A stretch of DNA of 64,000 bases from Coptis chinensis. Its lineage: Eukaryota; Streptophyta; Magnoliopsida; Ranunculales; Ranunculaceae. Location of the stretch: contig CM027382.1 in NCBI GenBank assembly GCA_015680905.1, forward strand, positions 9,211,501-9,275,500, given 5' to 3'. A program made the translations under genes and the position numbers. Below are positions 20,974 through 58,935 of the stretch, in pieces (position 1 is the stretch's first letter; each line of letters starts with the position of its first letter). The notes below the pieces were generated by a model. It searched no databases. It had not been told where the DNA came from and saw nothing but the letters and a program-made list of their open reading frames with translations.

Positions 20974-23900
20974 TCAAGCATGTAGGATTCGGAGCAAGTC
21001 CAAACAGTGTTGGAACTTAACTCCGGTGACAACCTTAGTCAGCATATCATCAGGATTGTCATAGGTGTCCACTTTCTCAAGTGCTACATCACCATCCTCA
21101 ACGACATCCCATATAAAGTGATAGCGGACATCAATATGCTTGGTCCGAGCATGATGAACCTGGTTTTTCGCCAAATGAATAGCACTCTGACTATCACAAT
21201 GCAAAGCAACATTGTTCTGCTCAATACCCATATCATCTAGAAGACCTCGAAACCATAATGCCTCTTTCACTGCCTCTGCCACTACTATATACTCTGCCTC
21301 AGTAGTAGATAGAGCAACTGTAGGCTGTAGCATAGACCTCCAACTAACCGGTGCACCATGCATCATAAACACATAACCAGTAGTCGATCGTCGTCTATCT
21401 AGATCACCTGCATAATATGAATCCACATATCCACTGACATAACAAGTGCCTCCACCATAAACCAATCCTATATCCAAGGTACCCTTCAAGTACCTTAATA
21501 CCCATTTCATTGCCTCCCAATGCTGCTTCCCAGGAATAGCTATATACATGCTTACAACACTAACTGCTTGTGAAATGTCTGGGCGTGTGCACACCATAGC
21601 ATACATCAAACTGCCCACTGCAGCATAAGGAACATGTTCCATATGCTTTTGATCCTCCACCGAACTAGGAGAGAACTTACGAAAGCCTAAAATGCCCAGC
21701 CAAAGGTGTAGAAACCGATTTTGCATTCTCCATACCAAAATCGCGAAAGTACTTTATGAAGGTATTTCTTTTGAGATACAACTATCTATCGATTTTGCCT
21801 ATCTCTATCAATCTCCATGCCCAGTATCTTCTTGGCTCCACCTAAGTCTTTAATCTCAAACTCAGAGCTAAGTTGAGATTTCAACTTGTCTATCTCCACC
21901 ATGCTTTTGGAAGCAATAAGCATGTCATCCACATAAAGCAGGAGATAGATGAAGTCATTACCACGAAGCCTACGAAAGTAAACACAACAATCATACTTAC
22001 TTTGGGTGTACTCATGTTGCATCATGAACGTGTCAAAGCACTTGTACCATTGCCTGGGCGATTGCTTTAACCCGTACAGTGACCGATTCAATTTGCATAC
22101 ATGATCTTCTTTCTCAACAACGACAAACCCTTCAGGTTGTTTCATATAGATCTTTTTTCCAAGTCCCCATGCAAGAAAGCAGTTTTCACATCAAGTTGCT
22201 CTAACTCCAAATTGAAGTGAGCAACTAAACTCAATAACACACGAATGGACGTATGTTTGACCACCGGGGAAAATACCTCATTGTAGTCGACTCCTTCCTT
22301 CTGTGAAAAACCCTTTGCTACCACTCTTGCCTTGTATCTAGTACTGTCGGACTCAGGAAGGACCTCTTTCTTTCTGAACACCCATTTACTACCGATAGTC
22401 CTTTTGCCCTTTGGCAATAAAACTAGGTCTCATGTGTGATTTTTATCAAGAGATTCCATCTATACTTGTATAGCTACCAACCAATCTCTGTAATGAGCAT
22501 CTCTAACAGCTTCCTTGAAGCTATCTGGCTCATCATCTTCGATATTCAGTGCATATACCACTAAATCCACCTGACCATAGTGTTTCACCGACTTCTTGTG
22601 CCCATCCTTGTGCACTTCTTTAACTTGTCTCTGTAGCCTAGGGTCAGCCACTACAAGTTGCGGATGCTCTTGCTCTTCTTCCTGTTGCTGTGTGGTTCCA
22701 TGATTTGGTACCTCATCATGATCTAACTAATCATCTACTACATCAGACAACTCAAGCTCAGTAACTTGAACTTCTATATACTCACCATTCTGCCCAGCTA
22801 CTTCCGGCTTACTGAAAGATAACACGGAAGTCTCATCAAAGATAACATCTCTGCTGACCAGGAACTTGTGGTCTTCTAGACACCACAATCTGTATCCCTT
22901 TATCCCATTTGCGAAGCCTAAGAATATGGCCTTCTTAGCTCTAGGATCTAGCTTGCTTTCCCTCACATGGTAGTAAGCTGTCGATCCAAACACTCGCAAA
23001 ATACTATAATCAGCTGGGTTACCTGACCACACCTTATAAGGTGTCCTGCAATCTATAGCTGGTACTGGTGACCTATTGTACAGGTAACACGCCATGGACA
23101 CTACATCTGCCTAATACTCTTTGCCTAAACTGGCATTAGACAACAAATATCTCGCTCTTTCAAGCAAGGTTCTATTCATCCTCTCTGCCATTCCATTCTG
23201 CTGTGGCATGCCCCTAACTGTCTAGTGTCTGGCAATTTCCTGTTGCGCACAGAACTCTTGGAAAGGTCCATAGGTATACTCAGTACCATTGTCACACCGT
23301 AATGTCTTTACCTTCCTATCTGTGCGATTCTCAACCCTTGCCTTCCACTTCTTAAATGTCTTAAACACTTCATCTTTCGATTTTATCATATACACCCACA
23401 CATAGCGAGTATGATCATCAATGAATGAGACATAATAGCGGTTACCTCCCTTGGAAACCACCCTGGAGGGTCCCCAAGCATCCGTATGCACATAGTTAAG
23501 GATGCCTGTTGTCGTGTACTTGCTTGACTTGAACTTGACTCTACACTGCTTCCCATAGACGCAATGCTCACAGAACCCCATACTTGGCTTCTTCAAATTC
23601 TTCAAGAACCCTCGCTTGCACAACTCAGACAAACCCTTTTCACTCATATGCCCTAAACGCATATGCCATATCTTAGTGCACTCAGAATCATTACTGCATG
23701 CACTCACTGCTACATCGCCTATCACCGTACTACCTATCAGAGTATACAAGGTTCCATGTTTTTTACCCTTCATAACAACTACAGAGCCATTAATAATATT
23801 TAGGCCTCCACCTTCGCCCACAAACTTGTGGCCTTTGGAATCCAAGGTACCAAGAGAAATAAGACTTTTCTTTAGCTCAGGAACATGTCTCACATTGGTT

Positions 23901-24943
23901 AAAGTCCTCACTACACCATCATACATCTTGACCCGTATAGTTCTAATTCCTACCGTCTTACAAGCAACGTCATTACCCATTAAAACAGAACCACCATCAA
24001 TGCTCTCATAAGAAGTAAACCACTTTCTATTCGGGCACATATGATAGGAACATCCGAAATCAAGAATCCACCTTTCAGTCATATAGTCTTGTGTGGACAC
24101 ACAGAGACTGAACTCATCCTCTTCAGAGCCTGAAGCATAACTTGCCTCAATCTTTGCCTTACCTTTCTTCTGACCATCTCTCTTGTTCTCTTTTTTCGGG
24201 TGAGGACAATTACTTGCGTAATGTCCGTTTTCATTGCAATTGTAGCATTTTACATGTTTTAAAGGCTTCTTTGACTTGGACCTAGAATTCTCATTACTTG
24301 TAGAATTCTGTTCATATGAATTTCCTCTTGCCACTAGCCCCTGACCTGTATCAATGCTATTCTCTACACGTGTCTTCTTCATCAACTCATAAGAAAGAAG
24401 TGCACTCTGAACTTCATCAAGATCAATGACTTCTCTATTCATAAATGTAGTCATTAAATGCTCATAGCTTTCTGGCAAGGAGAATATTAAACATGCTGCT
24501 TGATCCTCATCATCCATCTTCATACCCACATTCAAATAATCCACTAGATGTCGACGGAACTCACTAACGTGCTCTTGTATCGTTGAACCATCGACCATCA
24601 TGTACCGATAAAGACGCCTCTTAAGATACATCTTGTTCGTCATGCTCTTGGTCATATACATAGACTCTAGATTGAGCCAAATACTGGCAGCGGTATTTTC
24701 TCCCATCACACTATACATGACCTCATTAGCAAGACATAACCGGATTGATGAACAAGCCTAAAGATAGAACTCTTCCCAATCATCATTACTTATATTCGCC
24801 GCCTTAGATTTAATCCCCTTTAAAGCCTTGTGCAAATCTTGTTGGATGAGGATGTCCTTTACTTGGACTTGCCAAATCCCAAAGTTATTCTTCCCATTAA
24901 ACTTCTCTACTTCAAACCTTGCGTTTGACATCTTGGGAGCCAT
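20974..24943 (-). pseudogene. Copia-2 gag-pol polyprotein (near full length, inactivated)
   Basis: The frame starts with MAPKMSNARFEVEKFNGKNN at 24943, a typical copia gag beginning. Domains in order: gag helices (24718-24350); zinc knuckle CYNCNENGHYASNC near 24240; protease near 24065, where the motif reads WILDFGCSYHM, so the catalytic D-S-G is D-F-G; integrase HHCC (HMRLGHM ... CEHCVYGKQC) and core (23500-23170); RT (22417-21790) with FLHGDLE, SLYGLKQSPRQWY and LLLYVDDML; RNase H (21640-21000) with VHCDSQSAIHLA-type HCDSQSAI and a final LLRILHA before the stop at 20974. In-frame stops lie at about 24758, 23222, 23110, 22727 and 22460. There are frameshifts near 22150 (an A-run) and near 21760. 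It resembles the TNT1-type (Tork) lineage. Confidence 0.92.
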
Positions 24944-44560: not shown

Positions 44561-45717
44561 ATCATTAATCCCAGACCCAAAAGGAAAAACAGAGAGCATG
44601 AGATAATGAAATAAACAGAAAATGCCTTGTCTCTTCATTATGGGGCTCATTTAATTAAAATATCTAAATTCCATCAGTGTCATCTGTAGAAAAGAAATTT
44701 CTCACTACAAAGACTTATAAAAAATTGAAAAAAAATATCAAATTGTCATTGTGCTACCACACATCCATTAAAAAAAAACACCATCTATTATCAAAACTTA
44801 CTAACAGAAAACAACAAACAAAAATCAATTAATATATGTCTGAAATCTCTGTAAAGAGAGTGCACTGGATGCGAACTTTCCTTCCGTGTTCGTCAACGAA
44901 ATCCAAACTCATGAAATGCAAAAATGCAGCCAAAAACAAAATAGAGGGAACAAGAACTCCATAAACAAATAACTCCTTTCCTCAAGAGTAAAGCAACTAA
45001 AACCTCAGTTATACAAGCAAGCCAGCAGTTGAATGGATAAAATATATTGATAAATTAGAAAAACTAGAACAAGTTAACCCATTCAAAACAGAAGACCCTG
45101 ATAATTGTGAATTTCCGAACAAAATCAGATGAAAACCCGTACCTTGCTCGATTCAAGTGGATATTGTCGTCTAAGAGAGGCAGAGTAGGTGTGAACGCAT
45201 AAAAATTCCCCTATTCCTAAAAGAAAAATCGCATAGAAATCAAAAAACGAAAACTTTGTACTATGAAAAAGTTCAAAATCGATGAAAGAGAGAAGAACGA
45301 ACCACAATACAGACTTTGGAAGAGCTAATGAACACTGGTTAGGGAATCGAGTTCGACAAAAACTTGAATCGAGTTTTTTTTTTCGTAGAACACTTACATG
45401 GAACTTGGAACTAGGGCTGCTGCAGACGGATAGTTTCGGATTCGGATATGCCTACATCCGAATCCGAATCCGAAATTTATTACTCACATCCGAATCCGAC
45501 TGGATGTGTAAAATAATGTCCGAATCCGATATCCGAATCGGATATCGGATAATATCCAATCCGATCACTAAATATGGGCTTTCATGATTTCGTGATGGGC
45601 TTTCGTGATTTCATAGACCTTATCACCTGGTAGAGTCCGAATCATGTTCTAAATTAACCTGTTAAAAGCTGCGGCAGAACCTTATTCATCAAAATCAACC
45701 GTTAAACACTAAATTAA

Positions 45718-48316
45718 GAGTCCTATTACTGACGGACCCCAATTTGTGTTGGGCAGACCCGAAGTTGGGCGGAAGTTGGGCGGGGGTCACGCCCATCAGG
45801 TTATCTTAACTCATAAATCATACACCCCCAAACTAAATACCCAAAAACCGGCAAACCGGCAACCCCACAAACACAAACATACCATTTTGATTTAGCAATT
45901 TCTGCTTCAAACCCTCGATTTCGCGCTCGACCAAAACCCACAAACACAAACACTCGATTTTGATTTCGCGATTTCTGCTTCAAACCCTCGATTTCGTGCT
46001 CGACTAAAAACCCACAAACACAAACTCTCGATCTCAATTCAATTAACAAAGTACGGAATTATCTCTTCTCTTCAAACACTCTTTGTAACTGTTCATCACT
46101 ACACAGAGAAACTCAGTTGGTGTCTTTGAAACTATACTACTTATATAGCTCTGTTTCAGGTAACTGTTCTATCTTTCTATTTTTTTTTTTTTTTTTAATG
46201 TTATGTTTGATTCAATTCTTTTGAATTCTAGACACCCATTTTGTTATATGTTTTGAGCTACTTGTTGCTTTCCTTAGTACGCTTTTTGATAAAATGGTTG
46301 AGAAAACTGTGGTTTCTTGGGCAACTATGATTGGTGCAAAAGAACCCCCGAAATGATTTTAACAAGCCCCGAGATGGTGTCTTTACTGTTGTTATCTTTA
46401 TTGTATGTTTCTGATTACCTTATTAATCTACTTTGTTTATAGTTATGGGTAGTTATGCTATTGGAAGAATGGTAATTATTTGACTATATAGAATTTAATA
46501 TGGTTTTAAGTAATCCCTTTTTGCCTTGTACTAGAAGGCAAAAAGGAGGGCTGATCCAATAAATTAACACCTCCCAGCTGCGAAAGATAAATTTAACAAC
46601 TAGCATGCCACAAAAATCTACCTAAACAATATTAGTTCTAGTGAGGTCGGCGGAGCTAGGAAGTAAAGACTAAATAGTGAAAAGAAGTGGCAAGTACCTT
46701 CGCTTCAAAGAACTCTCGCTATCACCGAAGAAGTCCAATCCTTTAGTATAGTAAAACCCTTCACTTTCCATGAGCGCTTCAGCTTCAATATACCACCATC
46801 ATTTACCAGGTCCCAATCACTAACCTATTATTCCAATCAAACTTAGGTTAAACATCATGTGAAACGAGGTTATGCCCATGATGGTTAGTGGTTCCTAAAG
46901 GATTGGAACCTTTTGTGAACATATAAAACTTAGAACCATGATTTACCAGGTCCAATCCTTTAGGAACCTATCATTGACGAATGAATCTTCGTTTCATGCT
47001 TGGTTTTCTTAAGTCGGAGCAACCTTTATTTTCACAGGTTTGTTTCTTCCATCTTCAACCAAACATTTCACACTCTCTAAACTTTTCACTAAAACTCCTT
47101 AAACACACATCTCAGGTAAATTCTCTCCCCCAATTTCGGTTCCAAACCATTTCTGATTGTAGTTGATAATTGTGATGTAGTTTTTTTTTTTTTTTATGTG
47201 TATTCTGCAAAAGATTTGAACTTTTGATGATTTATTAATGTTCACTGTAATGTGTATTGTATAAAATGGACTAGTTTATGGTTTAATTCAACTGTTTTCT
47301 GTTATAGAATTCTTTGTGTTGTTAAATTGGAATAAGGAGAGTTAACTAGCTATCTCATTATATGGCATGGGTTATTTGATGGAATATTGTAATGAATGTA
47401 TTCAAGCATTCATTCATAAGAGGCTTACTATTTCTGGCACTATATACTAGACAATACTATGTGAGTAATTGTAATGTATTACAATACAAACAAACGTACG
47501 TACTGACCTGGAAGTGTAGTAGCATATGAGTCCACCTGAATTGGTGGATATTGAGTGAAACCTTATCGAACAAAATAGTTCTTGTAGTTACTTGTGTTAC
47601 TAACTAGCACGATAGATTATGTTTATTTAAGACTTCAAAGTCAGTAGGGGATGAGACCAAAATGCATGTGTTTCTGTAAGTAGAACTCCTAGCATGGAAG
47701 AATAATTGACTAAAGTGGATGGTTCGTGAGAAATGAATAGTTTTATTGAACCACAAGTATTTGTGCTGTTAATGGAATCAAACCTATTGTTTGTGTTCCT
47801 TGGTGGTTGATTTACTTTGTTGGTGTTCTGGTTAATAAATTGTTGAAGTGAATTGACATTGAAACTACTTTTTTTTTAAAGTAAATAGATGAACTTTTGA
47901 CAAAAACAAGAGTGAAGGCTAGTGAAATTGGGATTCTAGTAGTGAATAGCAGCCTATTTAAAGTAGGGGATGTAGACCTTGCCAAGAATCTCCTAAAAGT
48001 AGGTTCCCTTTGAATTTTTCTTTTTGTTTAAGAATTCCTCTTAATCGTGAAGCCATCATCATGCATGCATGCATGGGGTTGCGTCTCTCACCTTCCTACT
48101 ATTAGAAAACTGAGATTTGATTCTATTGTAACTTAATGGGAAGTTGCTGTACAATAACTTCTGGTTTGTGGTAGGTTTGTTACACTATGTTGACTTCCTA
48201 AACGGAGAAGAAGTTGTGCATTTGCTTGTTAGTATTAGAAGTTGTGAATTTGCTTGTTAATAAACAATTTGAATTAGTTGAATGTCTTATTTTTAACTCC
48301 TATTTATTTTGTAGCA
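45718..48316 (+). other. Left terminal region of the MULE and 5' flank of the PMD gene
   Basis: It contains the terminal inverted repeat (45718-45760), a duplicated 95-bp segment at about 45870-46030 around CTTCAAACCCTCGATTTCG, and an inverted pair CTAAAGGATTGG / CCAATCCTTTAGG near 46895 and 46955. A probable 5' UTR intron ends at TTTGTAG (48308-48314), just before the PMD start. No other gene was recognised. Confidence 0.55.
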
Positions 48317-50764
48317 ATGCCTCGAACAAAGAATGTAGCAAAAAGTGTTTTCACGGGTGCTAAGAAGTTGTTAGGTGGGGGGAGTAGTAGTTCGGGTCGC
48401 GAGGAGCCTGAGAAAAAGAGAGAAAGGGCAACAACTACCTCGGCATCAGTCCGTAGAGGGGATCGGAAAGCGGATGATCCCAGTAATGTAGTAAGTGGTG
48501 TAGAGTTAGGAAATCAAAAGAGAAGAAAGCAAACAGTTCTGAGTGATGTAGATGTAGATGTAGATGTAGATTTAGATTTAGATTTAGATTTAGATTTAGA
48601 TTTAGATGAAGATGAAGATGTAGATGTAGATGTAGATGTAGATGTAGATGTAGATGATGTAAATATGGATCATGGGAAGAGTGTAGCTGTAGGTGATGAT
48701 GAAGAAGATGATAGTGAAGAAGATGACGAAGAGGGTGTTGATGACGCGGAGGATGAGGAGGACGCGGAGGATGAGGAGGAGGAGGATGATGATGACGAGG
48801 AAGTCCCTGAAGTCCCTGTACCTGTACCTCCAGTGAATATTGTGAGAAAGTCCAACAATGAGTTGGAGTTCCAGAGAGGTGTTTATGGAGGTGGCCCTCA
48901 TGTGTCACATTTGTTATATGACTATGCGGTGCACGTGGCTCGCGATATTTGGGAGGGGCAGGTAATATTATTATATATTGTCTATTAGTATTTAAATTTT
49001 GTATTACGAAACCTTGTGCATACATTAATACTAAGTTTTTGTTGTTTTAGGCGGAGCGAGGGGTGTTGAAGTGTCATGGGCACCTGTACAAGTTGGTACA
49101 ATGGGATATCGTCGGAGAGTGTTCAGACTGTTCTAATTTTCATGTGGAGCTTCAAAGGACCGGCTTATGTGCTCTGGTCTTAGGTGTATATAGGCATCAG
49201 GATCCTGTGTTGGTCTCTGCGTTTGTGGAGAGGTGGCATCCAGAGACCAACACGTTTCATATGCCGTGGGGTGAGATGACAATCACGTTGGACGATGTTT
49301 CCCAACTCTTAGGAGTTCCGATCAGAGGCAAAGGCAAAGCGGTGGATCGGGGACACCGATTTGACCTCGAACGCAGAACAAAAAGACTCCTCCACCAAGG
49401 TCTTGGCATACCCATGGATAAGATAGATGCGGAGATGAAATCCAATAAGTTCACTTCCAAAGTTAGGATGGATTTCTTGATGAAGCGATTTCTTTGGGGA
49501 AGGTGACGGATGAAGATTTGGGATGAAAATGGGGTTGTTGTTAAGAAGGCGTCAACCCAAAAAGAGTTGCGGTTTGCTGTGAGAGCTTATTTGTTGTTTT
49601 TCTTTGGATGTACCGCCTTCACCGACACGTCTGGAACTGCAGTTCCCGTTTGTTATCTGAGACTGCTTATGAAATTTGCCGAGATCAGAGACTACGCGTG
49701 GGGTGCAGCCTTACTGACTTACTTGTACAGGGGTCTTGGGACTGCCACAAGTGCCAAGGTGAAGGGTGTTTCAGGCTATTTCACTCTCCTACAGGTATTA
49801 GTTTTTTTTTTTTTCTTTTCAATGTCAATTTTATCTATCTATTACAATATTAACTGGGTGTCTATATTAATCTAGGCATGGATTTATGAGTACTTCCCGG
49901 TGTTCAGGCCATTCCCAAACGATGACTATCAGTTGAGCATGTCGCGTACTCATAAATACTCAGTTACTCAGTCTTTTTATGCTAGCACAAACACCTGCAT
50001 TGAAGCATACCCGGCGATGATTGATAATATGACTTGTACCGATGTAAGCATTTTTGTATATAAATAGTTTTATTTATTAATTGATATTATTAGTATGTGG
50101 TTAATGATTAATTTCCTCGATCATATGCTATTTGATAGGTTGAATGGTATCCCTATGCTGAAGTTCGAGCTATACGGCCGGTGGATGAAATAGCATCTTT
50201 CGAGGGATTTATATGCTTTCTTGATAATGTCGAGCAGTACAATGTTTCGAGGGTTGTGCGTCAGTTGGGTCATATACAGTTTGTACCTTCAGATCCCCCA
50301 AGACCAAAGACCTCGACGCGAACTACTTCCGGACGCGGGTACGATGTGAAAGTTAATGTTGTGTCTTCCTATTGGAGTAAATGGCAAAATCACTTGATAC
50401 AACTTGAACATCGAGGACCCATTCCATCTTATCCATGGGAGTGTGTTAGTAGATACATGAGTTGGTACGAAAACAATAGCCATATTCGAATGATAAACCC
50501 TGATCATCTTAATCTCTACTCCCTACAGAGTTTTCCATATCATAATCTGGTGAGTTAATACTTTACAACGTTTGTTTTTTTTTTTTTTTGTTTTGTTTTG
50601 TTTTGGTATTTTATAAATGTAAATGTATATACTAATGTAGTTTTTCGTTTTAATTTTGACAGCACCCAGTCGTTGATGAAATTTCTCGTTTGCTCAATCA
50701 AGACCTGCAATTGGGTGGGACTGCGATTCCAGACGATGCACAGAACGAGTTCATGGAGGCATAA
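48317..50764 (+). CDS. Plant mobile domain (PMD) protein of the MULE, five exons
   Basis: Exons: 48317-48961, 49051-49794, 49876-50043, 50139-50549 and 50663-50764, all with GT-AG borders and all in phase 0, giving 690 codons. The start is taken at MPRTKNVAKSVF. Residues about 78-116 are alternating Asp-Val and Asp-Leu, followed by a Glu/Asp-rich stretch to about 165. The PMD core starts in exon 2, with LVLGVYRHQDPVLVSAFVER, THE-type TNTFHMPWGEMTITLDDVSQ and LLGVPIRGKG, then RAYLLFFFGCTAFTDTSG and YAWGAALLTYLYRGLGTA. Exons 3-4 contain WIYEYFPVFRP and VEWYPYAEV, family-typical. One in-frame TGA (49504-49506, codon 367) is the only defect, so this is either a recent pseudogene or a read error. 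Host PMD proteins (MAIN, MAIL1) act in the nucleus; the role of transposon copies is unknown. Confidence 0.85.
48540..48665 (+). repeat. GATGTA/GATTTA hexamer array encoding an Asp-Val/Asp-Leu run
   Basis: About 20 hexamers, ordered as a GATGTA block, a GATTTA block, GATGAA, then GATGTA again. The hexamer length keeps the PMD frame open whatever the copy number. Confidence 0.9.
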
Positions 50765-51547
50765 AATTTGACTCGGTGCAAGTTCATTGGCGGACGATAT
50801 CGTTAAGGAGCATTGGATTTAGCAATGTTGAATTTGGTTAGTTTAGGGTTTACTGTGTTGAGCATTGGCAGTCTTGTTGGAAGTCTTGTTGGAGTCTGGG
50901 GTGGAAATGTGTTATAGAGCTTGAGAGATTGAGTGTTTTTCTTGAGTCTAGAAATGTGTTATAGAGCTTGAGCTTGAGTCTAGGGTTTACTGTGTTGTTA
51001 TCACGATTGACTAACCATTTTCTGAAGTTTTAATTCTGTTATTGTTATGTTTACTTATGCTTTTGTAACAAAGATGCTTATAGAGAAAAATCAAGTGATA
51101 ACATTGTATTGTTGCTGAAACTCGGAGATTTTTGTGGGATATGTGGAATACTTGTTGAATCTAAGTTTTGTAACTTACAACTGCAGTACTATTTTGTTCT
51201 TTAAATGCTTGTTAATACTTGTAACTTCTTGTAACTATTTTGTAACTTAGAACTGCAGTACTATTATGTGGAATACTTGTTAATAAGATTTTGTTCATTA
51301 AATGTTTCTTGTACTCACATTCTAAGGATTTTTTTCATATTCGACTTCGCAGGTTTTGTTAGTCCGTTACAGAGATTACCAGATATGACATTTCTTGTGT
51401 TGAGTCCTCCGTCTTTGTTATTGTCAAATTTTTGGAATATCTTCTTCACTTTCTCCACTCTCATTTCTCTTATGTCATGTATAAAACATTGATCAATTGC
51501 CAAAACACGAAACATCTATTTTTTTGCCAAAACACGAAACAACACGC
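50765..51547 (+). other. 3' flank of the PMD gene
   Basis: T- and A-rich sequence with short duplications (GTGTTATAGAGCTTGAG near 50909 and 50954; TTAGAACTGCAGTACTATT near 51180 and 51247). No gene recognised. Confidence 0.45.
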
Positions 51548-51664
51548 AACATCTAAACTTGGAAAAAAAAATGACTTGCTGTTTTTTTGCCTCTTGGACG
51601 GTGTGGCCACACCGTCCAAGAGGCAAAAAAACAGCAAGTCATTTTTTTTCCAAGTTTAGATGTT
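51548..51664. repeat. 117-bp near-perfect palindrome between the MULE genes
   Basis: The arms 51548-51606 and 51607-51664 are reverse complements with a single one-base length difference in an A/T run. The centre is GTGTGGCCACAC with no loop. It lies at the left edge of the repeat array 51590-52020. Confidence 0.92.
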
Positions 51665-52020
51665 TCAAACGACATGGCCACACCGTTTGAGACTAATTCC
51701 AAGCGGTGTGGTCACACCGTCCAAATGCCAAAAAAACAGCAAGTCTTATTCTTTCCAAGTTTTAGTCTGAAACGACATGGCTACACCGTTTGAGACTAAG
51801 TCCAAACGGTGTGGCCACACCGTCCAAATGCCAAAAAAACAGAGAAATCTTTTTGCCAAGTTCAAATCTCAAACGACATGGCCACACCGTCCAAATGCCA
51901 AAAAAACAGCAAGTCATATTTTTTCCAAGTTTTAGTCTCAAACGCCATGGCCACACCGTTTGAGACTAAGTCCAAACGGTGTAGCCACACCGTTCAAGTG
52001 CCAAAAAAACAGAGATTTTT
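51590..52020. repeat. Array of GGTGTGGCCACACCG repeats downstream of the MULE transposase
   Basis: Roughly three and a half units of about 110-125 bp each combine ACGACATGGCCACACCGTTT, GAGACTAAGTCCAAACGGTG and a CCAAAAAAACAGCAAGTC spacer. Copies occur in both orientations. The same motifs form a second array at 55190-55690. Confidence 0.88.
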
Positions 52021-55000
52021 TTTTGCCAAAAGTCATTTTTTCCAAAATCAAACAAACATACATACATCCATACAATTAATTCGACAAAAAAATACAATCA
52101 AATTTAAGAAAATTGTATCAAAACCAAATTACAATTCCAACCACATGAACATTAATTACATAGACTTATTCCTAGTCAACATCTATTATTGGTATTTCGC
52201 CCCATCATTAGTGTGCTTTCGTCTTCCAATACTAAATTGGGAATGTTCAATGCAGTAAATTGCGCTTTGTCTTGCTTTTGTAATGCAAGATCCCAACTAT
52301 CTCGCAATTAAGTGTCGAGCTCTACGCCATCTTCGCGATCGGTTTTGGAACCGGACAATCATCAACAAGTTCAACATGGACAAAATGACATCCCGTAAGT
52401 AAGTGGTACCCAACACTTTCTTTACTCTCTCGGATTTGCTTGGGTTCTCGTGGCAAAATAAGATGGCAAGTACATACTTCCTAAATGTACGAGGACAACA
52501 TTAAATCTCGAAGCAAATAGATATCCAAGCAAAGGGCATGCTCATCCACTTACGAGGGGTGCCCAACCGCATTCATGGGAAATTGTAGGTTTCACGCACC
52601 TAATCTCACCGCGGAGTGTACAATGTACATGATTATAGGGGGAGGTTGTCATTAAGTTCTTGTAACAACTCATTTTCATCCACATCCACCACTCTTCCTG
52701 ACTTCTTCCTAATGCAATGCACATTGCTCTATACCCGCAATTGCCATCACCCACAGGGTCATCCACTTTAACAATATATTTGTGCAGTTCTTTTGGAATG
52801 TCCAAACCGTAATGTCTCGGCTCCCTTAGGATGCCAATGTCTAACTTTTGAGGTGATTTTTGAGAAGAGTTATTTCGTGGTATGGTTGTTTTAGGTGGTA
52901 AAGGTGATTTTTGAGAAGAGTTATTCCATGGTGTGGTTGTTTTAGGTGGTAAATGTGACTTTTGAGAAGAGTTATTCCGTGGTGTGGTTTTTTTTTGTGG
53001 CAAAGGTGGTTTCGGAGAAGACTTCTCTGCAAGTGGGTTTGGAGTAGCTTGGAATTTATGAGAAGGCTTGGAATTTGGCGTACATTCTGATTGTTGCGAT
53101 GAGACCCACTCTTCATGCTCACGTTGGGAATGTTCAAAACCAGATGAATCTCGTTTTGAAGAGTTCTCATCCTCAGTTGGAAGCTTTCTCTTGCAGCTAC
53201 CCTTAGGCCGACCTTTGGTTTTCGCCTCCTCATGAGGTGGCTCTAGCCATGTAGTTTCTGGCACAGCAATCTCCATAAGTTTTCTAACCATAACCCTCTG
53301 CTTTTCTTCAGAAGCCATTTCATACCTTTTCATAAACATATCCATCGAAGGTCTACAATCGGGACCAACACCCACCGACACACTTGGAAAAACAGACAGT
53401 TTTCCAAAAGGGATCGATAGCACTCAAAGATATGGAACGTTCTTGCTTTTGAAGTTCAATAATTTCGTGAGCACATGACAATCCATGACTGGTGCGCAAA
53501 TAACACCCACAAATGAACTCAGAGTCTTTAGCATCACAGCTTACACGGGTATCTAATTCTTCATAAAGCAAGTCCAAACATTCTCTTGAGACCAGGTTTC
53601 TGAGTTCACGAAATAAAGGAATCCGGTGGTGGTGCTGGGTTACAATCAGACTCTTCTCGAATGTACCTCTAATCTCAGACAGCTGGATCTCTAAAATCGG
53701 GTGGATCAAGTAAAACATACTTAGAAAATCATGTCTGTTTGTGTTTCCTAGAACACGTTTCACCTGAGCATGAGACCCTTCAACTCTATTGGTCGTTGTA
53801 CTCCCAAAGTGAATGTGTTGATCTGTCCAACAACATACGAATTGATCTTTGTAAGGCAACCAAGTCTCTCGCAGATAACTAACAAAATTGGAGTACTCAA
53901 CCCTATAGTTTTTTCAAAGCAGCAATTTACGGTTGAAGATATCCTCGGTCCCCTCGATTTCACTCTGTTGTTCCACGAACCGGCCTTTATCTACTAGTTC
54001 TGTGGTGGGAAAAAAATCATTGCATTTCTGAAGGATGCACATAGAGATATGCCATCTACAGAGATGCTTGTGCGCGTCAAGAAACACAATATCAGTAGCA
54101 CCCATCAAGGCCAAGTCCCTGTCAGACACGATCACAGATGGCCTTTCTTCACCCAGCAAACCGTTAAACTGACGCAAAGCCCACTCATAGTCTATCGCTG
54201 TTTCGGACTGGAGCAACACTTGACAGACCGTGAAAGACTTCCAGGTTGAAGTCACCCCCACAAACTGTACAAAAGGCCACCGATACTTATTGGTTTTATA
54301 GGTCGCGTCTATGATGAAAACTTTTGGAAAAGTCCGAGCCATTTTAACACCGTCCGGATGGGCCCATAACAATCCCGTTATCTCATCCGTATTCATATCC
54401 TCTCTCACCTCCTCGAAATAATGGTTTTCTGCTAACAACTCACGCAATCTCTGCATTTGCGAGCGACCGTTCATATCCAATGTCCTCACCTTGTGCCTGG
54501 CATTGTAGACTTGATATATGCTAGATAGGTTATCAGGAAACCTATGTCTGATGGACTTCAAAACTTCTTTAGGCTTAACTCCATTTTGAGTCATCTCTGA
54601 CAAGAACTCGAATTGTGGAACAGTCAGTCGAGTAGCAAATGCATGTCCTTCAAGGGTGTTCGCTAATGGATGGTTGTGAACACCATTAAGAACGACAATT
54701 TTCCAACTATCGACAGTGCCGCGTTGGAAAATACATCTTAACTTAAATGGACATCCACGATTCATGGTTCCCGTATTTCTCTTATTAACTTTCTCTGCTT
54801 TTTTGTGTGAACGATACACGCCCGAACTCTCGCAATCTAAATCCAGCCTTGGTACTCGGTTCCCGTTAGCATTCTGTGACTTCCCAATTACCACAACCAC
54901 ATTACATTGTTTTCCCCGAGCAGTTGCCCAACCAATTACGTCACTACGTGTATGAAATACCTAAATATATGAAAGAAAACAACAATCAATAAACTAATAT

Positions 55001-55189
55001 AATTTCATTTAGAAAATAAAAACAAGTGAAAACAATGCCTACTATGTACCTCTTCCGTAGTAAATATTTCTGTTGTATCCATTGAAAGCGGTTGAACATC
55101 ATCCACGTCATTCGAGTTTCCAGAGTTCTCAAAACGCACCGAAGGATCCTAAATAAAGAACAGTTGTTAATTGATGTTTGGCTTAAGTA

Positions 55190-55690
55190 CCAAATGCCAC
55201 AAACGACATGGCCACACCGTTTGGACTAGGTCCCAAACGGTGTGGCCATGTCGTTTGAGATTTGAACTTGGAAAAAAGACTTGTCTGTTTTTTTGCTACT
55301 TGAACGGTGTGGCCACACCGTTTGGACTTAGTCTCAAACGACATGGCCACACCGTTTGGACTTAGTCTTGAACGGTGTGGCCATGTCGTTTGAGACTAAG
55401 TCCAAACGGTGTGGCCACACCGTTCAAGTAGCAAAAAAACAGACAAGTCTTTTTTCCAAGTTCAAATCTCAAACGACATGGCCACACCATTTGGGACCTA
55501 GTCCAAACGGTGTGGCCATGTCGTTTGTGACTAACTTCAAACGGTGTGGCCACACCGTTCAAGTCGCAAAAAAACAGACAAATCGTTTTTTCCAAATTCA
55601 AATCCCAAACGACATGGCTACATCGTTTTGGACACAGTCCAGACGGTGTGACGAGACCGTTTGGTGTGAAATACAAACGACCTAGCCGCG
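55190..55690. repeat. GGTGTGGCCACACCG repeat array in transposase intron 1
   Basis: This lies wholly inside the intron between exons 1 and 2 of the MULE transposase. It shares ACGACATGGCCACACCGTTT and GACTTAGTC motifs with 51590-52020. Most of it is one long hairpin (55198-55529), followed by one more diverged unit. Confidence 0.9.
55198..55529. repeat. 332-bp near-perfect hairpin (159-bp arms, 14-base loop)
   Basis: Base i pairs with base 110727 minus i for all positions checked from 55198 to 55356 against 55529 to 55371. The only mismatch seen is at 55238/55489, and the loop is 55357-55370. Pairing breaks at 55197/55530. Both arms contain two ACATGGCCACACCG-type motifs and the CAAAAAAACAGACAAGTC spacer. 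Confidence 0.93.
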
Positions 55691-55694
55691 TCGT

Positions 55695-55890
55695 TTAATT
55701 ACTACATGCATAATTATTACATGCATAATTATTATATGTATAATTATTACATGTATAATCACTGTACACATCAATAATTCCTACATGCAAAATTATTACA
55801 TGCATAATTATTACATGTATAATCACTATACACATCAATAATTCCTACATGCATAATTATTACATGCATAATTACTATATTCATAATTAC
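55695..55890. repeat. Tandem AT-rich repeat with ATGCAT motifs
   Basis: Two main units of about 95 bp built from ATTATTACATGCATAA and ATCAATAATTCCTACATG, in transposase intron 1 just upstream of the hairpin array. Confidence 0.8.
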
Positions 55891-56090
55891 GTTTAATTTA
55901 GATTTACCTTATTCTTATTAAATGCATCATCATCCATTCCTCTATTTTCTTCACTTTGAACTTGTTCTACATTTTCTTCTTGAATGGGGTCACTTGGAAC
56001 TTGTTCTATATTTTCTTCTTGAATGAGGTCATGATGCATTACATTTTCTTCGTCATCTTCATGTTCTAAAATGGGGTTGGGCTCTTCCAT

Positions 56091-56316
56091 TAGTGTTTAG
56101 TGTTAGGGTTTAAGGGTTTAAGGGTTTATGATTTTTTATAGTGGAAGAGAAGAGAATAGAAGAGAAGGGCTGAAAAGGTTGCAACAAGTCAAATTCACTT
56201 TGGTTTGGGGTCTGCCCAACACAAAACAACTTTTGGGACCAATGGCACATTTGTAATAAGTGTTTTAGTTTTTGGGGTCTGCCCAACACAATATGGGGTC
56301 CGGCAGTAACAAGTAC
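56091..56316. other. Right terminal region of the MULE; promoter side of the transposase
   Basis: It carries the terminal inverted repeat (56276-56316) and an inner copy of GGGGTCTGCCCAACACAA at about 56209. The 5' flank of the transposase is only about 225 bp, so the promoter must overlap the terminal repeat. Confidence 0.55.
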
Positions 56317-56470
56317 CTAAATTAACATTAACATAGCAGTTCATCAGTTCATGCTTCATTAACCTGTTAAACAAACTTCAAGTCTTCAACAGTTCAACCT
56401 CTTAATTAAGAAAATACTTCTAACTTAAGAAAATACCCTCATAACCTATTACAAACATAAAAATCTATTA

Positions 56471-56896: not shown

Positions 56897-58935
56897 TTAA
56901 ATAAAGTTCAAGAGAAGGAAGTTACCATTAAGTTTAGGCAACCAATCCTTCAAACATACCAACGCCTCCACAGAATCAACACCCAATGATGAATGAGAGT
57001 CGGTAATTATTCTACCACCGGAACTAAATGTAGATTCTGAAACAACACTCGACACAGGAACTGCTAGAAGATCACGTGCCATCCTTGCTAATATAGGAAA
57101 CTTCGGACCATTGTTTTTCCACCAAACCAATATGTCACAACCTTTCCCATTAGGATCAAATGGGAATAAATCTTCTTCTAGATACTTCTCCAACTCTGTT
57201 TTCTGAACTTTTGAACTTTTCGAACGTTGTTTCGCGGAAATTTTGGAAACCTTCATCCATCTTAGAACTCCCTTGGTCACCAGAAAATGAATTCAACAAA
57301 CTAGAAGATGATCCGACATCAACCATAGAAGAATCGGACATTGCATACATGGTGTACAACTCATTCAAAGAATTTTTTTCACATCTTCTTCTTGTGTAGA
57401 CTCCTTACCATAAATCATAGTAAAGGCATACTCAATAAACTCCATCTTATAACAAGGATCAAGTATAACACAAAAACTCATCAATAAATTACATTCACTC
57501 CAATATTTATCAAAATTTTCTTTCATAGCCTTTGCCATATCACGGATATAATAAAAATCAGACTCTAACCACCCAAGAATATCATGATGAATATCACAAA
57601 CATATTTAAAATGCAAATTTGCAGTTGGGTATTGGACGCCGGAGAAATGAAGTGTAGCATCATTGAAAACTTTCAAACACTCACAAATTTTAGTTCCCAT
57701 TTCCCACTCTTGAGGAGAAGGTAAATGCTTATAGTCGGAAGCTAACTCGCCAAACGCTCAAAGGCTCTACGACTTTCGGATGGCACTACTGAGCATGTCA
57801 TAAGTAGAGTTCCATCTTGTAGGAACATCCATAGAAACCCCTTTCCCAGTTAACCTTGTCTGAGCTAATGCATTCAAAAACTTTTCATGCCTACTCTGAG
57901 AATTCTTGCCATACCTAGCACTCTCTCGAATCTTAACAATAAAAGGAGCAATCACATTCAATCCATCTTGCACAATAAGATTTAAAATATGGGCACTACA
58001 TCTTATATGAAACAAACTACCATCAAGACATAAAACCCCTTTCCTCTTAAGCCAATCCTTGAGCTCCACTACCATAGTATTATTGTTAGAAGCATTATCA
58101 ACGGTTGTAGCAAATAACTTTCTATCAACATTCCATGCCAACGCTTGAGCCTTAATAACCTCACTAAGAACAACACCACTATGTGGCGTAGGAACAGTAA
58201 GATAAGCAATGATTTTTTTTCGCAACACCCACTCATCATCAATATAATGACAAGTAACACAACAATAACCAATATTTTGATAGTCAGGGGTCCACATATC
58301 GGTTTGTAAAACTAACTTTTGATGGCAACTTATCAAAAAATCTTGTAACTCAGTTCTTGACTCATTGTAAAGTTGCATGACATCCTCTCTAAACAGTGGT
58401 TCTTGAGACCCATTTGAACATAGGACAAATACCATTTATAAAAACTCTAAAGTATTTATGCTCAGCCATAAGAAAAGGGTAATCATGCTTAGCAACCATG
58501 CGTGCAAAGTCAAGTCTACTTGTACGTGGGTCATATTTCCAACTTGCTAATTTTGGAGCTTCATTTTGTTTAAATGAATTACACAAAAGCTTTTGACCCG
58601 AAGTAGAATGTTTCTTTATCTTGCAAACTTTCAAATGATTTCTCAAATGCGTAGTACCCAACTTACTACTAGGATCAAAACTCTTTTTGTAATGTTTACA
58701 ATAAGCTTTAGAGGTTCCATCTCCTAATTTTTTAATTTCAAACTCTAGCCACACTTTTGAATGTTTACCTTTCAATGGATCAGACTTTCAGCAGAGTTTG
58801 TTTCTTCATCCGACGATATACTAGCAAAGCAAAGCGATCGCATCAATAGGCGTAGGCTCGTTGATAGGCATATGACTCACACTACCACTAGGTGAAGGAG
58901 CTGATGCAGCACTGCTTGGGGTTGGGGTAGCCATT
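56897..58935 (-). pseudogene. hAT transposase (BED zinc finger, catalytic core, hATC dimerisation domain)
   Basis: Reading begins at MATPTPSSAASAPSPSG (58935). The BED finger is near 58775-58600, with SKVWLEFEI, AYCKHYKKSF (one zinc-binding Cys has become Tyr) and HLRNHLKVC. The RNase-H-like core spans 58435-57400, with LVLQTDMWTPDYQNIGYCCV, ATTVDNASNNNTMV, CSAHILNLIVQDGL and DVPTRWNSTYDML. The hATC dimerisation domain is at 57280-56920, with DILVWWKNNGPKFPILARMA and RDLLAVPVSSVVSESTFSSG. Frame breaks lie near 58800, 58410, 57740 and 57330. Length and order match plant Ac/Tam3-type zf-BED transposases. Not functional as it stands. Confidence 0.92.

Follow-up and report, generated by a model that had tools for sequence, protein, structure and literature searches.

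A Mutator-like element family of Coptis chinensis combining a PMD gene, a transposase with an OTU-like tail and a regular lattice of candidate target sites

A 64,000-nucleotide stretch of the Coptis chinensis genome (GCA_015680905.1, contig CM027382.1, positions 9,211,501 to 9,275,500, forward strand), hereafter the window, contains a degraded Mutator-like element (MULE) belonging to a high-copy family. The element carries a PMD gene, a convergent transposase gene whose product ends in an OTU-like tail, and two arrays of the site AAACG-N12-CGTTT that together form a regular lattice. This architecture occurs in two subfamilies, both extra parts are constrained between those subfamilies, and the two share the frame of the lattice with a changed core. 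From this we infer which factor binds the lattice and what its binding achieves: in the reading that we tentatively favor, and to which we give not quite an even chance, a PMD-linked factor reads the lattice and counters silencing of transposase expression. The principal features are as follows.

45718 to 56317, unstranded: Mutator-like element of 10,600 bp, a degraded copy of a high-copy family, recognized by terminal inverted repeats, target duplication and a paralogous empty site
48317 to 50767, plus strand: PMD gene, exons 48317-48961, 49051-49794, 49876-50043, 50139-50549 and 50663-about 50767
52300 to 56090, minus strand: transposase gene, exon 1 56090-55908, exon 2 55148-55050, exon 3 from 54960
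52367 to 52751, minus strand: OTU-like domain, Cys box GDGNCGYRAM at 52751-52722 and His box GCHFVHVEL at 52393-52367
51541 to 52040, unstranded: array 1 of AAACG-N12-CGTTT, between the 3' ends of both genes, exact sites at 51667, 51770 and 51940
55198 to 55697, unstranded: array 2 of AAACG-N12-CGTTT, in transposase intron 1 (55907-55149), exact sites at 55201, 55235, 55336, 55505, 55607 and 55675

An earlier, sequence-only reading had proposed an element at 45718 to 56316 with two convergent multi-exon genes, one for a PMD protein with a strongly acidic N-terminus and one for a transposase with a SWIM finger and a C-terminal OTU-type cysteine protease. The element and its two genes are confirmed by terminal inverted repeats (TIRs), duplication, empty site, exons and the profiles PF10536 and PF10551. 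All five PMD exons are in phase 0 with GT-AG borders. With X at its one stop, an in-frame TGA at 49504-49506, the product matches PF10536 at 4.6e-59 over positions 15-347 of 347, and the acidic N-terminus is borne out by 55 D/E and 1 K/R in residues 76-175. PMD proteins are reported to be restricted to angiosperms (PMC8616336). A study of the tea plant reports 175 PHAS loci at PMD genes, which there give rise to small RNAs (PMC10673657).

The transposase exon model was picked for its ordinary splice borders and is one of several models that stay open. Its product matches the MULE domain PF10551 at 7.6e-21, above the cut-off, with DDE motif residues near 54309, 54126 and 53781. The proposed SWIM finger stands as a CxCx9CxH motif near 53511 but not as a profile match, PF04434 being unmatched at E up to 1. 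The N-terminus holds a FAR1/AFT-type domain, supported by PF08731 (1.2e-6, above the cut-off), PF03101 (2.4e-4, below it) and the AFT2 structure (E 0.0024); this type of domain is WRKY-GCM1-like. The reading frame of the transposase gene is interrupted by an in-frame TGA at 53914-53916, shifts near 53.4 kb and breaks again inside the OTU-like part. Given the in-frame stops in both genes and the broken frames, the window copy is dead and neither protein can be made intact. The sequence-only reading had noted neither these lesions nor the motif arrays.

To place the element within its family, copies were collected from the host genome (936 Mb, 116 contigs). First-look DNA queries gave 759 candidates with transposase exon 3, 968 with PMD exon 2 and 728 with the tail, and 40 per query were scored and listed; at the protein level the tail gave 2035 candidates (148 scored) and the initial part of PMD exon 2 gave 2906 (150 scored). 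The close copies, L010-L029, are the 20 best transposase matches after the window itself (95-97% identity), chosen blind to PMD. PMD sequence is present in all 20, with all five exons matched in 18; L018 is without PMD exons 3-5, and L013 is cut by the end of its stretch. The Cys region is likewise present in 20/20 and the His region in 19/20 (not L027). Identity over coding parts is mostly 90-97%, with PMD exon 1 lower at 79-97%, and the upstream and intergenic sequence is mostly unalignable. Non-coding modules of these copies thus seem to be swapped or rebuilt fast while coding parts stay alike.

A second cluster of tail matches, at roughly 55-65% identity, defines the second subfamily, from which nine copies were picked for having no listed stop in the tail and were read beside it. 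Eight of the nine contain PMD pieces, in each case oriented against the transposase as in the window. Nearly all of PMD exon 2 is matched in L042, L045, L047 and L049 (52-56%), L041 matches it as two pieces (46 and 58%), L046 has PMD exons 4-5 only, and PMD is fragmentary in L048 and L050. The ninth copy, L043, could be a deletion derivative: it belongs to the second subfamily and has the lattice, with no PMD within 5 kb. The sequence-only reading had asked whether relatives lacking the PMD gene or the OTU domain would reveal a chance composite. With PMD and the Cys region each in 20/20 close copies and PMD in 8/9 diverged ones, a chance composite of PMD gene and OTU-tailed transposase is ruled out. 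Scans of viral contigs and of genome contigs yielded no relative outside the host genome except L001, which matched a PMD piece at 38% identity; its reading frames look phage-like by eye, and it was set aside as a chance match.

The two arrays supply the third component. The element holds nine exact sites and the remaining 53 kb of the window holds none, against 0.015 expected, and among spacer lengths of 0-30 only 12 occurs in the element. Neighboring sites are likewise separated by 12, which places alternating half-sites 17 bp apart. Alternating nearest-neighbor pairs at 17 bp number 16 in the element and 95 in the 20 copies, and there is none among the 79 half-sites in the rest of the window. 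Array 1, marked by GGTGTGGCCA, is present in 19/20 close copies, and array 2 in 8/8 loci that cover intron 1, the window's own locus included. In this first subfamily the core is near-fixed as TGGCCA, at 94-97% per position (108 sites, both orientations counted). In the second, the lattice was found in 9/9 copies read downstream of the tail, and in L040 upstream of exon 3 too; its half-sites are AAACGA/TCGTTT around a degenerate core, and none of the 12 loci examined, which come from nine copies, contains GGTGTGGCCA. The frame of the lattice is therefore common to both subfamilies and its core differs.

The exact 22-bp site occurs 584 times genome-wide, and its reversed control not once. Among the first 100 sites in the list, 68 fall within 5 kb of a transposase, tail or PMD match from the scored sets, where 0.28 would be expected. 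The other 32, in 19 clusters on C1 and C2, would be either unlisted copies or short non-autonomous derivatives. None of eight tail matches assigned to the second subfamily and compared over that stretch has a first-subfamily site within 5 kb; one of these (67% identity, PMD match 83%) may itself belong to the first subfamily, which leaves seven at 59-63%.

Both accessory parts are under constraint between the subfamilies. For PMD exons 2-5, the ratio of nonsynonymous to synonymous divergence (dN/dS) is 0.335 for the window against L042 (459 codons) and 0.40 against L041 (442 codons). Transposase exon 3 gives 0.445 against L040 and 0.28 against L031. Between L030 and L031 the values are 0.42 for the DDE-SWIM part, 0.54 for the linker and 0.365 for the OTU-like part. 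With synonymous differences as high as 0.33-0.61, these between-subfamily ratios are rough, and the inclusion of dead copies raises them. Several PMD matches from the protein-level listing have open frames of 270-295 residues without a stop; within PMD exon 2, L045 has no stop and L042, L047 and L049 have one each. Accessory parts are thus kept between subfamilies, and recent copies are mostly decaying. Presence across copies together with this constraint supports the PMD gene and the OTU-like tail as a maintained module. The sequence-only reading had put forward a PMD/OTU pair as a possible anti-silencing module; its second partner is OTU-like by motif only.

That qualification follows from the tail itself. 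In the window copy the two boxes are out of frame with each other; the Cys-box pattern occurs once in the window and in none of 200 simulated windows. In the natural copies L028, L030, L031 and L039 both boxes are invariant and share one frame, in order and at suitable spacing. In L030 a single open frame of 655 residues reaches from the DDE region to the tail end and takes in the SWIM-like motif and both boxes, and the tail is also open in L031, L039 and L028. The Cys is kept in 22/30 copies and the His in 27/29. The two boxes proposed earlier thus stand; the expected PF02338 match does not, as the tail gave no match to this profile, and the four places listed for it in a search of the host genome are not among the tail matches listed. 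The Otubain model Peptidase_C65 reaches 0.042-0.25, confined to the Cys box. An hhalign comparison with a host OTU aligns the Cys boxes (E 0.023, probability 2). Against the PDB, the tail profile has no OTU among the matches listed, and a frame-joined window composite has one weak match, an OTU (E 1.6). Since these profile tests do not confirm an OTU and the assignment rests on the two boxes, the tail is named OTU-like. Plant proteins automatically named PKS-NRPS hybrid synthetase cheA-like combine MULE and OTU parts, and legumes are rich in MAIN-LIKE proteins; as a lead, this suggests that MULE transposases with an OTU tail may be widely distributed, although the literature search found no paper on them.

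Taken together, the gene set and arrays may help the element to escape silencing. In the mechanism that we propose, a transposase with a FAR1/AFT-type N-terminus, DDE residues and a SWIM-like motif would mobilize the element, and its OTU-like tail probably acts on the transposase complex or on target chromatin by taking off ubiquitin or a relative. The PMD product would be a nuclear accessory protein and would maintain expression of the family in the face of host silencing. The two arrays would be its cis targets: a dimeric or polymeric factor, most likely the PMD protein or a complex that includes it, would dock on half-sites alternating every 17 bp and license transposase expression, and the core would co-evolve with the protein, as for VANC and VANDAL. 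The resemblance of the lattice to VANC targets (PMC5735166) lends circumstantial support to an anti-silencing role.

Several points weigh against this proposal. Both the binding and the anti-silencing role are putative, PMD proteins have no demonstrated DNA-binding activity, and the likeness of the tail to true OTU enzymes goes no further than its motifs. L043 has the lattice with no PMD in reach, and L018 is without array 1 as well as PMD exons 3-5. Constraint is also weak or absent inside the window's subfamily: shared variable sites per codon position are 28/30/42 in transposase exon 3, 25/18/34 in the DDE-SWIM part, 26/25/19 in the OTU-like part and 16/18/21 in PMD exon 4. In addition, 0/18 extracted PMD exon 2 sequences are open with the window's borders, and the tail of L030 against L028 has a dN/dS of 1.19. 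Finally, the FAR1/AFT-type domain of the transposase is an equally natural candidate for binding the lattice.

That last point gives rise to the chief rival, which we consider rather unlikely: the lattice would be bound by the element's own transposase through its N-terminus, for synapsis or autoregulation, and the PMD protein would act elsewhere, for example by disturbing the host MAIN/MAIL1/PP7L complex. The presence of the domain speaks for it, as does the placement of array 2 inside the transposase gene and of array 1 beside it; that array 1 sits between both genes speaks against it. Moreover, no half-site lies inside the TIRs. This rules out the lattice as the terminal sites of the transposase, and because the lattice is not simply an end-binding site, it also counts against this explanation.

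It is quite improbable that the arrays serve, as self-complementary repeats, to end convergent transcription or to produce double-stranded RNA, and would be a target of silencing instead of an anti-silencing site. In favor of this view, each unit is a palindrome, array 1 is placed where two genes converge, and in the window copy the RNA fold of 55198-55663 in array 2 reaches -364 kcal/mol (z -34.6). However, mere hairpins need neither a fixed 17-bp alternation nor a subfamily-specific core, and the longest exact hairpin arms measure 118 nt in the window copy versus 21-39 nt in seven other copies. A long hairpin was accordingly rejected as a conserved feature, being absent from all seven. Array 2 of the window copy also contains a 159-nt, 99% inverted repeat (55198-55529), which could be a source of small RNA. 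Lastly, the idea that the PMD gene and the OTU-like tail are functionless pieces captured passively, as in pack-MULEs, is very hard to credit: MULEs often capture genes, both genes are broken in the window copy, and the tail and PMD exon 4 change near-neutrally within the close subfamily, but both parts are found in two subfamilies with a dN/dS of 0.3-0.4 between them.

The limits of the element were set from its ends and from an empty site elsewhere in the window, with the following features.

45718 to 45762, unstranded: left TIR, about 45 bp
56273 to 56317, unstranded: right TIR, about 45 bp
45710 to 45717, unstranded: left target-site duplication TAAATTAA, with an additional matching ninth base, C, at 45709
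56318 to 56325, unstranded: right target-site duplication TAAATTAA
1 to 453, minus strand: paralogous empty site of the target sequence

The TIRs are identical at 36/45 positions when the left end is compared ungapped with the right. The empty site holds a single copy of the target sequence and matches the element's flanks at 94.3% over 317 bp on the left and 100% over 148 bp on the right. Duplications of 8 bp were read by eye in two further copies (L015/L008 and L016/L009; 2/7 pairs readable at both ends), and for this reason the right end is set at 56317, one base past the 56316 given earlier. MULE target duplications measure 7-12 bp (PMC9168764). With PF10551, the TIRs and a duplication of 8-9 bp, positions 45718-56317 are one Mutator-like element. 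Pieces of a hAT transposase adjoin it at 56897-57757 (PF05699 8.4e-30, PF14372 5.8e-27), and a Copia-type retrotransposon gag-pol reading frame lies at 23222-24757 of the window (PF14223, PF22936, PF00665).

Among known systems, maize MuDR has the same layout of two convergent genes, with the transposase (mudrA) and the accessory gene (mudrB) running inward from either end; unlike the window element, its mudrB is not known to be a PMD and its TIRs are long. In En/Spm, the element-coded protein TnpA acts on a short motif that is repeated in both inverted and direct orientation, and it affects methylation, but that element belongs to another superfamily and its repeats are subterminal, whereas the arrays described here are intronic and intergenic. 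Ginger1 and Helitron/Helentron elements (PMC2836005, PMC9741609) likewise carry an OTU-type cysteine protease part in a transposon protein; they belong to other superfamilies, and their parts are named OTU, whereas the match here is at the level of motifs.

MULEs with PMD have been described before (Babu 2006, as cited in PMC9289625). Ikeda 2017 (PMC5418596) described MULEs of grasses and Amborella that have captured PMD-C and carry it fused to the transposase, and had already raised the possibility of anti-silencing, an idea for MULE PMDs that is repeated in PMC8616336. The present family shares the MULE-borne PMD and the proposed role. It differs in that its PMD, assigned at family level by PF10536, is a separate convergent gene and not fused to the transposase, and the window element adds the OTU-like-tailed transposase and the site lattice. 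Our literature search, by title and abstract with Repbase outside its coverage, found no MULE combining an OTU-tailed transposase with a PMD gene, and we make no claim of absence; the available parts of PMC6446971, PMC8599713 and PMC9168764 contain no relevant passage on OTU, protease or PMD. The present work adds the presence, in two subfamilies, of a PMD gene that stands separate beside a transposase with an OTU-like tail, together with a candidate target array.

The Arabidopsis MAIN/MAIL1/PP7L system also has PMD proteins with a linked DNA motif, DOWN (PMC7156037, PMC9899485), the only PMD-linked motif encountered in the literature consulted, which is a promoter motif and forms no lattice; the available parts of both papers leave open whether MAIN and MAIL1 bind it and what PMD proteins do at DNA. 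DOWN, CATGCAGTTT in the MORC1 promoter (PMC9899485), matches the lattice stretch CATGTCGTTT at 8/10. Its best match averages 7.55/10 over the 108 first-subfamily sites, as good in 2/1000 letter shuffles, and 6.54/10 over 65 second-subfamily sites, as good in 15/1000, in a post hoc comparison with one motif instance in which the two site sets share half-sites and hence are not independent. In the window, the arrays have no match of 9 of 10, the remainder of the element has 2 and the sequence beyond it 6; for 8 of 10 the counts are 15, 10 and 58 in the same order. The resemblance is a lead only. A bolder version, which we think unlikely, would make MULE PMDs sequence-specific anti-silencing factors that polymerize on the lattice and co-evolve with its core, a second independent invention of the VANC type, with DOWN as a related site. 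Were this true, the PMD proteins of host and transposon, opponents in the arms race, would read related DNA.

The closest comparison is with VANDAL elements. VANC proteins bind short motifs that are tandemly repeated in non-coding parts of VANDALs and differ between related elements (Hosaka 2017, PMC5735166), and tandem motifs placed in this way, with a core that changes between subfamilies, were found here beside another accessory gene. VANDALs, including the Ulp1-bearing KIU (PMC5735166, PMC13317346), thus share with this family an accessory protein, family-variable tandem motifs and a ubiquitin-like-protease-type domain carried in a MULE. They differ in having VANC in place of PMD, Ulp1 on the accessory protein in place of an OTU-like tail on the transposase, and another motif. 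A PMD gene accompanied by a private, regular and changing array offers a concrete DNA bait with a built-in specificity control, in the form of two subfamilies with two cores. The standing proposal that PMDs encoded by transposable elements counter silencing thereby becomes directly testable, as a second case beside VANC.

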